Origin: Symbiodinium sp. CCMP2592
Lineage: Eukaryota > Sar > Dinophyceae > Suessiales > Symbiodiniaceae
NCBI GenBank assembly: GCA_905221615.1
Contig: CAJNDT010002913.1
Coordinates: 186,001 to 250,000, forward strand
DNA length: 64,000 nt
Direction: 5' to 3'
Part shown: positions 4,425 through 48,805 of the stretch, piece after piece
Numbering within the stretch: the first letter of the stretch is position 1
Layout of the letters: each line of letters opens with the position of its first letter
The notes under the pieces: generated by a model
What the model was told of the DNA's origin: nothing
The model's input: the letters and a program-made list of their open reading frames with translations, nothing else
The model's database searches: none
Program-made: the position numbers and the translations under genes

Positions 4425-5599
4425 CATGATTCATGTGCTGCTGCATCTTTCGGTAGGGTAACTTGTACTCTGCAGCAAGTTTCTGAAACTTACCTGTGGT
4501 TAGTAGGGAATGGAGGAAGGGGGTATAATTACAAGTACTATTACTACCATTCTTCCATTCCCTACTAACTACCCTAAGGCCCCAAGGTAGTTCCTTTTTG
4601 GGGTTCATATATAGAATCCTATAGGGTAACTCCAAAAAGGAACTACTTTGGGGCCCCTGGGTAAAGACAGGCACAGCGGCAAGCAGACTGAAGCCGGTGG
4701 GATCGTTCATCTTTAGAAGTGTCCGAAGCGCGGAGATCTCAGTCGGGTCAGAGATCTTACCTAAGCTGCTCAACGTTCAGTACCTCCTGTGACCAAAGAA
4801 GTGCATACATCTTTGGGTTAAATATGCTATATTGCAAACCAACACCAAAAAACACACAAAAAATGCACCTTACACCCACACCCGGAACCCCTAAACCACT
4901 GAACATCCTGGTTACCAGGCATGACGACTTCCAGGATTCGATGGCCGGCGTGGATCGCCGGTCCGAGATCTATATCCTTGGCTGCTCTTTCGGGCCCTTG
5001 AAATAGGCTGTGTTTGTCTTCCTTCTTCTTAAGAACATAATTTCCATTCTGACCTTTCAAAACTCTGCTTCTTCCGACGAATAGAACTAATTAATATGCT
5101 AAGCTGCTAATTATATACTTTAAGACTTTAGGGCTGTTGTTCAGAAGAGCCTGGTGTCGGTCATGCAGGCGCTTGGGTCTGAGACCTCCTTGGACCGAGC
5201 TTGGAAGCGTAGTAGCAATCGCCCCCTCCCGCTGTGCAGGGCACAGAGGCACCGGAAAGGGTAAGTGATGATGTCCTGGGATGCCCAGAAACCTAGGAAT
5301 AAAAAGGGCTCCCTTTTTGGTATTGGGTAAATTTATAAGGAACTTAATTAGGACTACAGAAAGGGAATAAGGGTACCACTGGGCATCCCAGTATCGAGTA
5401 AAACAAGGACGACCATGAGATGTATGAACATCACGTAGTGGCAGGCGTAGTGCCAAATCCGGCTCACCATGGGGAATACTGGCGTGTAGCTTGCCTCATT
5501 GATAACAGCCACATAGACGAAGTCCTCCACGGTCAGCTCTTCAAAGCTCGGCAGCGTGCGCGTCTGGTCTTCAGCGTCTGCCATTTCTTTTAGTTCGAA
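4425..5599 (-). CDS. Multi-exon gene, membrane-associated product, function unknown
   Basis: Best-supported exons are 5396-5599 (acceptor TTGAAG; 68 codons containing MADAEDQTRTLPSFEELTVE and a hydrophobic end HYVMFIHLMVVLVLL) and 5151-5275 (DIITYPFRCLCALHSGRGR). They are joined across palindrome K with GA-AG borders and the frame is kept. Further likely exons on the same strand lie at about 4917-5070 (KKKEDKHSLFQGPERAAKDI), 4674-4755 (SDPTEISALRTLLKMNDPTG) and 4425-4494 (KLAAEYKLPYRKMQQHMNHG, ending at a GTAACA donor). A C element and a second palindrome fill the intron between the last two. If exon 5151-5275 is not spliced earlier it meets a TGA at 5151. Product not recognised. Confidence 0.5.
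4499..4570. repeat. Unique palindrome inside an intron
   Basis: Inverted copies of GGTTAGTAGGGAATGGAGGA flank a short AT-rich spacer. It abuts the C element that follows. Confidence 0.7.
4570..4662. mobile_element. Palindromic element, family C
   Basis: The TIR is TACCCTAAGGCCCCAAAGTAG with TTCCTTTTTGGG inside it. The core has the ATAGAATCCTATA signature shared by all C copies. It lies between two candidate exons of the 4425-5599 gene. Confidence 0.85.
5276..5395 (-). mobile_element. Family K palindrome acting as a GA-AG intron
   Basis: The inverted ends are ACTGGGATGCCCAG and CTGGGCATCCCAG. On the minus strand the intron would run from GATACTGGG to CATCCCAG (120 bp). Exon 5396-5599 ends in phase 0 and continues in frame at 5275. 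A second, partial K copy lies at 48447. Confidence 0.65.
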
Positions 5600-5784
5600 C
5601 TTCAAAACACCAGTGGTTCAGAGCTTGAGCCCACTCTACTCAACAACGAAGGCCCAAGGAAATGTCCGAATAGGATGAACGGATCTAGTGTTTTGTTGAC
5701 AGTTAATCTGTTCTCTAAATACTAACCTTACAATCACTATTATTGTACTTGCCACCACCACTCGTACTCCTATACTACCTCCTG

Positions 5785-6366
5785 CTACTACAACAACAAC
5801 TACAACTACTACTACCACTACTACTACTACTACTACTACTACTACTACTACTACAACTACTACTACTACTACTACACCACTACTACTACTACTACTACTA
5901 CTACTACTACTACTACTACTACTACTACTACTACTACTACTACTACTACTACTACTACTACTGCTACTACTACTGGCTACTACTACTGCTACTGCTACTA
6001 CTACTACTACTACTGCTACTGCTACTGCTACTACTACTACTACTACTACTGCTACTGCTACTACTACTACTACTACTACTACTACTACTACTACTACTAC
6101 TACTACTACTACTACTACTACTACTTCCACTACTACTACTACTACTACTACTACTACTACTACTACTACTACTACTACTACTACTACTACTACTACTACT
6201 ACTACTACTACTACTACTACTACTACTACTACTACTACTACTACTACTACTACTACTACTACTACTACTACTACTACTACTACTACTACTACTACTACTA
6301 CTACTACTACTACTACTACTACTACTACACTACTACTACTACTACTACTACTACTACTACTACTAC
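5785..6366. repeat. Giant (CTA)n trinucleotide array
   Basis: About 580 bp of CTA with scattered CTG, CAA and CCA variants. The long poly-Leu, poly-Tyr and poly-Val frames here are repeat artefacts. Confidence 0.95.
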
Positions 6367-6562
6367 TGGGGCGTATGAGGTGTGCGCAGGCGGCTGTAGC
6401 GATGTCTGGCAGCACTCGCCTAGCACACCTCGTCTAAAACAAGGTTAGTCGTACTTAACCGATACCAACGGGGAATAAAGTTCAAACACAATCTCAGAAC
6501 CCCTGCTTTATCAAGCCCTCAAAAAACCCTAAACCAAAACCTGACCTGGCAAATGCCTGCAG

Positions 6563-7379
6563 GACAGGAACCCTCCAGCCGATTGAAGCTCCCTCGTCAC
6601 CTTACTCTATTCACAACACACCTTGAGAATCTGCACTCTTCACTTCACGGCTTCCTCATCCGCGGGGTAGGTTTTGGATTTAAGGTCTACGGATGTTTAC
6701 GGCCTAGGACTTTTGAGAGCCTGGGGCTTGCTGGGCTGGAAATTTACGAGCTGCAAGCCTCGCCACCCAACAGCCGGAGAGGATCGAAATCACTGCCAAA
6801 CACGCTTCTCGAAGCTGGCAGCGAACCCATCACTGAACAAAGAGGAATCCCAAGGAGGGATTCAGGCTGCAGCTTTCGGGTAGGCGGGGTCAACTTCTGC
6901 AAGCCTGAAACCCCTTAACCATCATACAGCAGTGGCTCTCACACCTGCAAACCTGAAAACCCTACTGATAAGACATGAAGAGCAATCCATTACACGTCTT
7001 GTGAAGATCTCCTGCCTTATTAACTCCATGTAGACCAGCTAGACGGTGTTCTAATGTAGGGGCTTTAATAATTAGAAAAGGGTTTGGGGGGTTCCTTATT
7101 ATGCTTAAGGTATACTATGCCCCTCGAACCCTATTCTAATTATTAAGGCCCCTGTATTATAAGTATCTTTCACAAGCCCTGCAGCAGCCCAGGGCGATCT
7201 TTGGCGAAGACTGTCATTTCAGAAGGTCTTCATTTGATGCTGGCAGCACGACCCTGAGCGGCTCGAGGCAATTGCTCACGGTTTCCATTGACTTGACCGT
7301 TTATATGGTATTCTACATTCTACAGAACACCTTTGGAGATCCTGAACTACTGAAACATGGAGGTGCCGGTCTAAGCTGA
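6563..7379 (+). CDS. Multi-exon gene, product unknown
   Basis: Candidate exons are 6563-6666 (GQEPSSRLKLPRHLTLFTTH, ends at GTAGGT), about 6745-6879 (ends at a GTAGGC donor), 7007-7055 and 7164-7379. The last is strong: 72 codons (YLSQALQQPRAIFGEDCHFR and later DLTVYMVFYILQNTF) to a TGA. The G element between 7055 and 7164 gives GT-AG borders and joins the last two exons in phase 0. An alternative frame over 6936-7015 is also protein-like, so exon 7007-7055 is the weakest part. Confidence 0.5.
7056..7163 (+). mobile_element. Family G palindrome acting as a GT-AG intron
   Basis: The TIR is GTAGGGGCYTTAATAATTAG with AATAGGGTTTGGGGGG inside it, and the core is TCCTTATTATGCTTAAGG. The GT of the first base pair is the donor. 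Acceptor ATTATAAG lies seven bases past the second TIR. Length is 108 bp. Confidence 0.6.
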
Positions 7380-7697
7380 AGGCTGCAGGGCTCAGGCTTG
7401 AGGCTTTTGGGCCATGGCTCTCTTCTGATCAATCAAGCAGTTGCATGAGAATTCCTCTCCACTCCTATTGAAGGGGGCCTTGATAAGTAGAAGGTATAGT
7501 ATACTACTTTTATTCGCAACAAGTCGCAAGGAACTAACTTTACGTATATTTTATTCCCACCTCTACATTCCGCCCCAACCAAGTTCAATACCTTTGGCAG
7601 AGACAAAACTCTTTTTCCTCCCAAAGACAGAGAATCTTGGGGCCCTCACACCTGGCTGGGTTTACAGTTCGGGCCTAGGGACCATGTCGGAAAAGCC

Positions 7698-8005
7698 ACA
7701 CACACACACACACACACACTCTCTCTCTCTCTCTCTCTCTCTCTCTCTCTCTCTCTCTCTCTCTCTCTCTCTCTCTCTCTCTCTCTCTCTCTCTATATAG
7801 GGGGGGGGGGGCGAGATATATATATATATATATATAATATTATATATAATATGTATATATAATATATATATATATGTATATATATATATATATATATATT
7901 GTGTATATATATTATATTAATATATTTGTATATATATATACATATATATATATATATATACATATATATATATATATACATATATATATATATATATATA
8001 TGCGT
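7698..8005. repeat. (CA)n(CT)n(TA)n compound microsatellite
   Basis: CA from 7698, CT to about 7795, a G10 run near 7801, then imperfect TA/TATG repeats to about 8005. Confidence 0.95.
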
Positions 8006-48079: not shown

Positions 48080-48185
48080 GTACAGATGTGTGTATATATA
48101 TATATATAAATACACATACATATACATATACATATATATATATACATACATACATACATACATATATATATATGTATGTATGTAA
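48080..48185. repeat. (TA)n and (CATA)n microsatellite
   Basis: Short TATATA, CATATA and TACATACATA runs. Confidence 0.95.
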
Positions 48186-48299
48186 ATATTCTTCGTAATA
48201 CGAACATTTCGATGCATAATAACGTTAACAATACTGTCAATCTTGTTTCAGTCTCCCATAATACCTATAGCACCTCAAAGCCTGGCTGAAGGCTTGGGA

Positions 48300-48446
48300 A
48301 CGGTTGATGATATAAATCCTGCATTAGCCATAATAAGGAATATATATACCATAAATCGCATAGCCTTAAGGACCCTAAACTATGGGATTTATGGTATCGG
48401 TATATTCCTTATTATGGGTCATGCAGGATTTATATCATCAACCGTA
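48300..48446. mobile_element. Full-length long-palindrome form of family D
   Basis: Unlike other D copies, this one has both inner arms: CCATAATAAGGAATATATAT before the centre and TATATTCCTTATTATGG after it. It looks like the longer parent from which the roughly 105-bp copies lost one inner arm. Confidence 0.8.
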
Positions 48447-48540
48447 GGAATAAAAAGGGCTCCCTTGTTGGTATTGGGTACCTTTATAAGGAACCTGGGG
48501 CTACAAAAAGGGAATCAGGATACTACTGGGCATCTTAGCA
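48447..48540. mobile_element. Partial family K copy abutting a D element
   Basis: It shares GAATAAAAAGGGCTCCCTT, GGTATTGGGTA and CTACTGGGCATC with 5276-5395 but lacks the left TIR, which is replaced by the D element. Confidence 0.7.
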
Positions 48541-48543
48541 TCC

Positions 48544-48805
48544 TTAAGTCTTGAGTTTAGGGTTTAGGCTGTAGGAGTTTCCGAAGCATTAGGGTACGTC
48601 CTCATCACAAGGATTCTACTAGTTAGGATATTATATTCGGGTCCCCTATTTCGGAAACTCCCAAGTCTTGAACCCCGTGTAACTTTCCATTGTTGAAAGC
48701 ACTGGGTCTTGGGTTGAGTAATGCCTGAAATCCTTGATCAGTGTTAAGGCTTTAAAGTGAGCTGCATGCAGCGCCCTAATTATCTCTTGGGGGCTGAAAC
48801 GAAAC
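48544..48805 (-). CDS. Two exons split by an E intron, product unknown
   Basis: Exon 48659-48805 (acceptor CACTACAG; 147 bp) reads FRFSPQEIIRALHAAHFKAL then TLIKDFRHYSTQDPVLSTME and SYTGFKTW. It continues at 48568 (DLNPKLKT, then TAA at 48544). The last coding bases are themselves CCCTAAA-like. Phase and length fit. Function unknown. Confidence 0.5.
48569..48658 (-). mobile_element. Family E palindrome acting as a GT-AG intron
   Basis: The donor GTTTCCGAAATAGGGGAC and acceptor GGAAACTCCTACAG are the TIRs. Length is 90 bp. The exon end TGGGA is shared with the E intron at 27774. Confidence 0.65.

Follow-up and report, generated by a model that had tools for sequence, protein, structure and literature searches.

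Element K as the first intron of gene 1

Are the short palindromic elements scattered over a dinoflagellate chromosome also introns of its genes? We addressed this question in a stretch of 64,000 nucleotides from Symbiodinium sp. CCMP2592 (assembly GCA_905221615.1, contig CAJNDT010002913.1, positions 186,001 to 250,000; hereafter called the window; genome size 1.098 Gb). In this DNA, an earlier note had resolved 18 introns by hand and attributed them to at least ten families of palindromic elements acting as introners. The introner interpretation is right for one of them, element K in a gene designated gene 1, which protein comparison places to the exact base. For the families in general, it was not supported.

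The reading frame ahead of K includes the peptide MADAEDQ, and a query of 63 residues starting there retrieved one protein, P0093, which was 94% identical over all 63 residues. P0093 comprises 384 aa encoded on a contig of 1,246 nt without introns, from which we infer that it derives from a transcript. Other parts of P0093 matched nine more stretches on the minus strand of the window, down to position 1212. When gene 1 was spliced at borders of the form GN..AG|G, the alignment with P0093 ran gapless over ten introns. For gene 1 and P0093, no relative was found in Pfam or PDB (0 PDB matches for P0093), and searching the genome itself at the protein level with gene 1 gave 10 matches, every one at the gene 1 locus. 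The gene and those of its introns that are referred to below are:

1212-5605, minus strand: gene 1; 11 exons; aligned with P0093 over 384 residues (360 identical); Met at residue 8 is the likely start
5276-5395, minus strand: intron 1, formed by element K; 120 nt; GATA plus the 116-nt element CTGGGATGCCCAG..CTGGGCATCCCAG, followed by exon GACATC
4179-4680, minus strand: intron 4; 502 nt, GC-AG|G; contains C copy 4570-4663 and palindrome 4496-4575
1862-2021, minus strand: intron 8; 160 nt, GC-AG|G; mostly E copy 1895-1990 bearing a TTTAGGG-like insert
1657-1823, minus strand: intron 9; 167 nt; largely degenerate CCCTAAA repeats

On the coding strand the sequence at K reads TTACTC | GATA + CTGGGATGCCCAG...CTGGGCATCCCAG | GACATC, and the continuity of the coding sequence across it is seen directly in the alignment, which bore out the listed borders to the base. 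The intron consists of one copy of a target duplication plus the element, with no leftover sequence on either side; its GA donor comes from the target and its AG acceptor from the end of the element. The second copy of the duplication, GACA, which differs from GATA by one base, begins the next exon (GAT and GAC both encode Asp). K contains in-frame stop codons, and its RNA is predicted to fold end to end (-35.3 kcal/mol, z -3.66). Judged from the intron-free coding sequence that is 94% identical, K is presumably excised from transcripts. Elsewhere in the genome, K copies mostly span CT(A/G)GG to CC(C/T)AG and carry a 4-bp duplication. Among 29 copies genome-wide, seven strand-placements in six loci fit the GN..AG|G rule; the window copy alone has demonstrable coding flanks, the other five loci being judged by open frame only.

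All ten introns of gene 1 are followed by G as the first exon base, and their borders are GA-AG (five), GC-AG (three) and GT-AG (two). In eight of the ten, the donor dinucleotide GN is repeated at the start of the following exon; given the G, a chance match has a probability of about 1/3, which yields P ~0.003 for eight of ten (hand calculation). The rule is partly assumed, since it was used to set the border of intron 9 and, elsewhere, to pick GN-AG among equally good sliding positions. The open frames on the shorter side of the ten introns measured 28-64 aa (mean 41.6). Copies of the modelled families occurred in three of the introns: K fills intron 1, a C copy lies within intron 4 and an E copy within intron 8. 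Three copies in 3,242 intron bases is near the window density of 7.66 per 10 kb, a comparison that covers one gene only.

Some further features of these introns were observed. The borders of intron 10 (1335-1579) share a direct repeat of 6 bp, GACATG, which goes beyond the usual GN. The palindrome at 4496-4575 (TAGTAGGGAATGG..CCATTCCCTACTA) represents a further family; it adjoins the C copy of intron 4 and has relatives at the genome loci L023 and L040. TTTAGGG-like telomeric repeats lie inside two E copies (1895-1990 and 23826-23955) and make up most of intron 9, as if telomere repeats had been patched into breaks.

Palindromic families with the signature of short transposons

With simple repeats partially masked, an inverted-repeat search yielded 52 candidates in the window, telomere-like and simple-repeat palindromes among them. 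Family copies, including degenerate ones, were resolved by searches with the family arms and then with profile models for B, C, D, E, F, G, H and L, to which a K model was added. The nine models detected 49 copies with scores of 25 bits or more across the 64 kb, and none once the window had been shuffled as two-base blocks. Because all models but K were derived from window copies, the window copies of these eight families match by construction. The 20 kb adjoining the window held nine copies, confined to one of the two 10-kb flanks, and ten 5-kb samples of the genome held eight, spread over three samples; density is therefore patchy, and the window is rich.

Palindromic families are thus present at nearly all places where they had been noted. 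C2 (31569-31673) is treated here as a diverged C rather than a separate family, since it scored 31.6 bits with the C model. J is weak: its two copies are alike, but the inverted repeat extends beyond the claimed borders. Family L and the palindrome at 4496-4575 are additions. Searches with Rfam at gathering scores and for tRNA gave no match. In viral contigs the terminal inverted repeat (TIR) motif of family D gave no match and that of family C two, neither of which was palindromic when inspected. The copies in the window are listed below; strand is given where assigned, "claimed" refers to the 18 introns of the earlier note, and copies marked "unclaimed" are not among them.

112-226: B copy; unclaimed; TA at both ends
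10469-10583: B copy; claimed intron 10471-10588 (GA..AAG|TA) unsupported
17576-17699: B copy; claimed intron 17489-17697 unsupported
25099-25221: B copy; claimed intron 25101-25216 unsupported
32683-32738: B fragment; unclaimed; weaker piece at 32653-32681
44539-44679: B copy; unclaimed
52154-52254: B copy; unclaimed
4570-4663: C copy; unclaimed; within gene 1 intron 4
8887-8994: C copy, diverged; unclaimed
9761-9836: C copy, one end damaged; unclaimed
12353-12446: C copy; unclaimed
16360-16452: C copy; unclaimed
32834-32926: C copy; claimed intron 32825-32932 with the longest open frame among those claimed; AAG|T acceptor, homolog not found
45491-45584: C copy; claimed intron 45489-45586 unsupported
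49656-49750: C copy; unclaimed
62299-62392: C copy; unclaimed
63158-63250: C copy, right arm lost; unclaimed
31569-31673: C2, diverged C; claimed intron 31546-31675 unsupported
14488-14592: D copy; claimed intron 14490-14589 unsupported
43497-43602: D copy; unclaimed
46727-46836: D copy; unclaimed
48299-48446: D copy; unclaimed
54712-54816: D copy; unclaimed
62968-63072: D copy; unclaimed
10228-10338: E copy; AAAT/AAAT duplication; unclaimed
13139-13220: E copy without tips; unclaimed
17059-17170: E copy; ATAT/ATAT duplication; unclaimed
23826-23955: E copy; ATTT/ATTT duplication; interrupted by TTTAGGG-like repeats; unclaimed
27662-27782: E copy; ACAT/ACAT duplication; claimed intron 27651-27774 unsupported
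48571-48666: E copy; claimed intron 48569-48658 unsupported
10873-10985: F copy; AAAT/AAAT duplication; claimed intron 10879-10987 (TAG|A) unsupported
25297-25404: F copy; ATAT/ATAT duplication; claimed intron 25273-25398 (AAG|G), no homology support
30911-31020: F copy; ATAT/ATAT duplication; claimed intron 30917-31022 unsupported
33420-33516: F copy; flanks ACAT/AAAT, one mismatch; unclaimed
50394-50502: F copy; AAAT/AAAT duplication; unclaimed
51914-52026: F copy; ATGT/ATGT duplication; unclaimed
7052-7159: G copy; claimed intron 7056-7163 unsupported
13675-13855: two adjoining G copies; unclaimed
22976-23219: G copy interrupted by an H copy nested at about 23069-23193
18708-18837: H copy; claimed intron 18713-18850 (CAG|G); frame open, homolog not found
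24889-25015: H copy; claimed intron 24886-25019 unsupported
19335-19403, plus strand: J copy; claimed intron GTTA..AAAG|GTTACC; fits the border rule, palindrome exceeds the borders, homolog not found
8246-8295, plus strand: J copy; claimed 50-nt intron; shorter-side open frame 10 aa
23296-23404, 30643-30750, 49524-49640 and 54187-54301: four L copies (CCAGAAAGTTGGAATATG arms); absent from the earlier note

The palindromes are short non-autonomous DNA transposons of several families, mostly ~90-145 bp long, and resemble miniature inverted-repeat transposable elements (MITEs): they have inverted repeats at their ends, are short and lack coding capacity. This family structure was directly observed, and target duplications could be read from the flanks. 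In the window, exact 4-bp direct repeats bordered five of six F copies and four of five E copies, and they varied from copy to copy (AAAT, ATAT, ATGT, ACAT, ATTT) within the form ANNT. Genome-wide, all of eight E copies, one of them from the window, had an exact 4-bp repeat (AAAT or ATTT). Duplications of K were read at 30 loci, one of which (L016) was dropped as it has no 3' end; among the remaining 29, the window copy included, 12 had exact 4-bp repeats and seven had one mismatch, with twelve different 4-mers represented. Of the B, C, D and G copies, 21 were tabulated, and 17 of these had TA at both ends; TA is self-complementary and may be either a duplication or part of the repeat. One H copy is nested in the G copy 22976-23219, and the split G sequence is readable on both sides. 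First-look searches gave 1,644 candidates for E and 801 for K, so that these families are genome-wide; of the 801, 40 were scored, and the 39 besides the window copy were 88-91% identical.

The other 17 claimed introns

The 18 listed introns had been described as having different splice dinucleotides. Eleven of them start with CT and end with AC or TC on the plus strand, which corresponds to GT-AG or GA-AG on the minus strand. Once strand is considered just two types are left, GT-AG (12 of 18) and GA-AG (6 of 18).

For the remaining 17, the matched frame test, the rate of AG|G acceptors and a homolog query gave no good support. For the 18 claimed introns (K among them), open frames on the shorter side averaged 28.2 aa. 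A matched control of 600 random segments, in which any GT or GA donor and AG acceptor within 12 nt was allowed on either strand, averaged 29.9 aa (P 0.64), and 36 listed family copies treated with the same freedom gave 28.75 aa (P 0.63). As a positive control, elements placed in open reading frames (ORFs) of a long interspersed nuclear element (LINE) and excised exactly yielded 148 aa. With the best choice of borders, the 18 sites reached 36.1 aa against 29.9 aa (P 0.067). Ten of the 17 fell below 28 aa, the lowest verified shorter-side frame in gene 1. For short exons the frame test has only moderate power.

Fixed random excisions gave a different outcome. Mean total open frame was 84.8 for the 18 claimed introns versus 69.2 for random excisions (P 0.035) and 69.7 for random excisions with GT/GA..AG borders (P 0.015), and the shorter-side value of the claimed set was reached in 0 of 200 draws of either kind. 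An excess over fixed excisions would be expected if the borders had been chosen to keep the frame open.

AG|G acceptors were found in four of the 17, which is about the chance rate of 1/4, versus ten of ten in gene 1; with K included the numbers were five of 18 for AG|G and two of 18 for the donor repeat (K and J at 19335), versus ten and eight of ten in gene 1. The J copy at 19335 satisfies the donor-repeat rule, yet its inverted repeat extends into the claimed exon. Three-base periodicity of the spliced flanks was 1.2-1.3, at or below that of random windows (1.3-1.6), compared with 2.4-3.7 in the LINE. In 4-kb bins (8-32 kb and 44-52 kb) it was 0.76-1.59, the LINE (34.1-43.2 kb) giving 4.0 and shuffled sequence 1.13; the two bins holding gene 1 gave 1.6 and 2.0. 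A joined query of eight spliced segments over ten claimed junctions found no homolog at E 10 among 8,000 scored candidates (~257-819 aa). As this was one query of at most 100 words, which left out J8246, B10471, F10879, D14490, E27651, C2 31546 and E48569, the absence is moderate evidence. Six-frame Pfam scans of nearly all sequence outside the LINE, except 15003-16000, gave DUF5754 at ~57.7 kb as the sole match above cut-off; DUF3915 and Mucin matched weakly below it.

Frame, periodicity and Pfam tests had suggested a region without genes, a view that was overturned for 1.2-5.6 kb by the match to P0093. Most copies in the window lie where no coding sequence was found. For B, C, D, E, F, G and H, no copy matched a verified intron border to border in the one verified gene examined. 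The assessed E and F copies have ANNT targets and GGG..CCC ends; the way in which K could supply splice sites, a duplication beginning with G and an element ending in AG, is therefore closed to them, and they would need other splice sites.

Other features of the window

57200-59100: AT-rich island; an ORF matches DUF5754 (57670-57807, plus strand, E 3.6e-16)
34172-43146, minus strand: non-LTR (long terminal repeat) retrotransposon (LINE); reverse transcriptase 38676-40475; long unassigned ORFs; weak endonuclease-like match 40390-41691, below the Pfam cut-off

The AT-rich island looks like a giant-virus fragment inserted in the host chromosome, DUF5754 being a family known from giant viruses. 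Among the relatives of the LINE, the five assigned to a species are all Symbiodinium proteins with 46-59% identity, the top matches reaching 66%; its 1,388-aa ORF gave no match in PDB.

Discussion

It is very probable, in our view, that the window holds MITE-like families of which K forms an exact intron, with the other 17 claimed introns most likely lying outside coding sequence or within longer introns. Insertion of such an element, presumably blind to genes and driven by a transposase encoded elsewhere, duplicates a few target bases, 4 bp of varied sequence for K and 4 bp of the form ANNT for E and F. If K, with its inverted repeats CT..AG, landed within an exon where the target begins with G, the GN donor would come from one copy of the duplication and the AG acceptor from the element end, while the other copy would begin the following exon (AG|GN). 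Removal of the element together with one duplication copy brings back the reading frame, and the K insert would therefore act like an intron, which in principle could happen in either orientation. The K intron would thus have been created by insertion and would be removed by the ordinary spliceosome.

The view that most family copies between 5 and 49 kb are introners, and that all 18 listed are introns at the borders given, appears highly improbable to us. It draws on the exactness of K, on the open frames that exceed those of fixed random excisions and on the J copy at 19335, which fits the GN..AG|GN rule. Yet random segments granted equal border freedom did as well, AG|G acceptors occurred at chance rate, the spliced flanks had no raised periodicity and the eight spliced segments found no homolog. 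Above cut-off, Pfam recognized only DUF5754 and the LINE reverse transcriptase, though gene 1 is without a Pfam match, too. Another view, that these are ordinary MITEs inserting anywhere and that K sits in an older intron whose borders it chances to fill, would agree with the C and E copies that lie within longer introns of gene 1 and with the genome-wide K copies, most of which were read without demonstrable coding context. We regard it as very unlikely, since K and one copy of its duplication make up the entire intron, where an older intron would be expected to have left remnants.

Several points speak against the explanation that we favour. Splicing of K is judged from the protein comparison with P0093, whose transcript origin is itself read from its 384 aa on a 1,246-nt contig without introns. 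At 94% identity, P0093 belongs to a relative or to another strain. The duplication copies at K differ by one base. An empty site for K was not found, the search of the own genome with gene 1 having matched this locus only; that insertion made the intron, rather than filled an older one, is accordingly argued from the border-to-border fit. The 17 introns without K still exceeded fixed random excisions (27.3 versus 18.0 aa on the shorter side, P 0.002), and a minority of them could be real introns. Because a single gene is verified, the estimate of how rarely copies are true introns is poor.

DNA-transposon introners have reportedly been described by Huff et al. in 2016. For dinoflagellates, introners are reported in large numbers (PMC11453091; PMC10666404). 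Polarella glacialis has 12,253 introner introns of recent origin, and 15 of its families count at least 100 introns each (Roy et al. 2023 as quoted in PMC11453091). Compared by description, these share with the window an origin of introns from transposable elements and several families per genome; in the window, a single copy is a verified intron, and the majority of copies are situated outside known coding sequence. Amoebophrya A25 and A120 likewise have many introner families (252 and 1,954), with inverted repeats close to the ends of the introns and direct repeats of 3-5 nt bordering them (Farhat et al. 2021, PMC7789003). Intron borders in these two strains, however, are mostly not GT/GC/GA-AG, whereas all ten verified introns here are GN-AG|G, and those genomes measure ~116 Mb versus 1.1 Gb. 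On both grounds an Amoebophrya host was rejected for the window, while the border rule, the genome size and the relatives of the LINE point to a dinoflagellate. DNA-transposon introners draw their splice sites from duplication, element or flank and reach 43 families per genome (Gozashti et al. 2022, PMC9860276). K shares with them both its inverted repeats and its target duplications and differs in host and family, not in kind. Given these counts, the co-occurrence of many families, which had been thought unusual, is not so. MITEs, for which PMC7789003 gives a definition, are likewise short, non-coding, high in copy number and equipped with inverted repeats and target duplications. K differs from them in being able to supply its own splice acceptor.

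Introners of dinoflagellates have been published before, and K is therefore a further case of a known phenomenon. It is conceivable, though we think it rather unlikely, that the GN repeated at dinoflagellate intron borders, as in eight of ten introns of gene 1, is the target-duplication scar of K-like elements with AG-ended inverted repeats, and that most introns of this genome, even those without a recognisable element, began in this manner. In gene-poor DNA, a palindromic element combined with an open frame is weak evidence of an intron, as 17 of 18 introns resolved by hand were left unsupported. K itself provides a worked case, exact to the base, of a transposon becoming an intron, in which a duplication copy yields the 5' splice site, the element end yields the 3' splice site and removal of both restores the protein.

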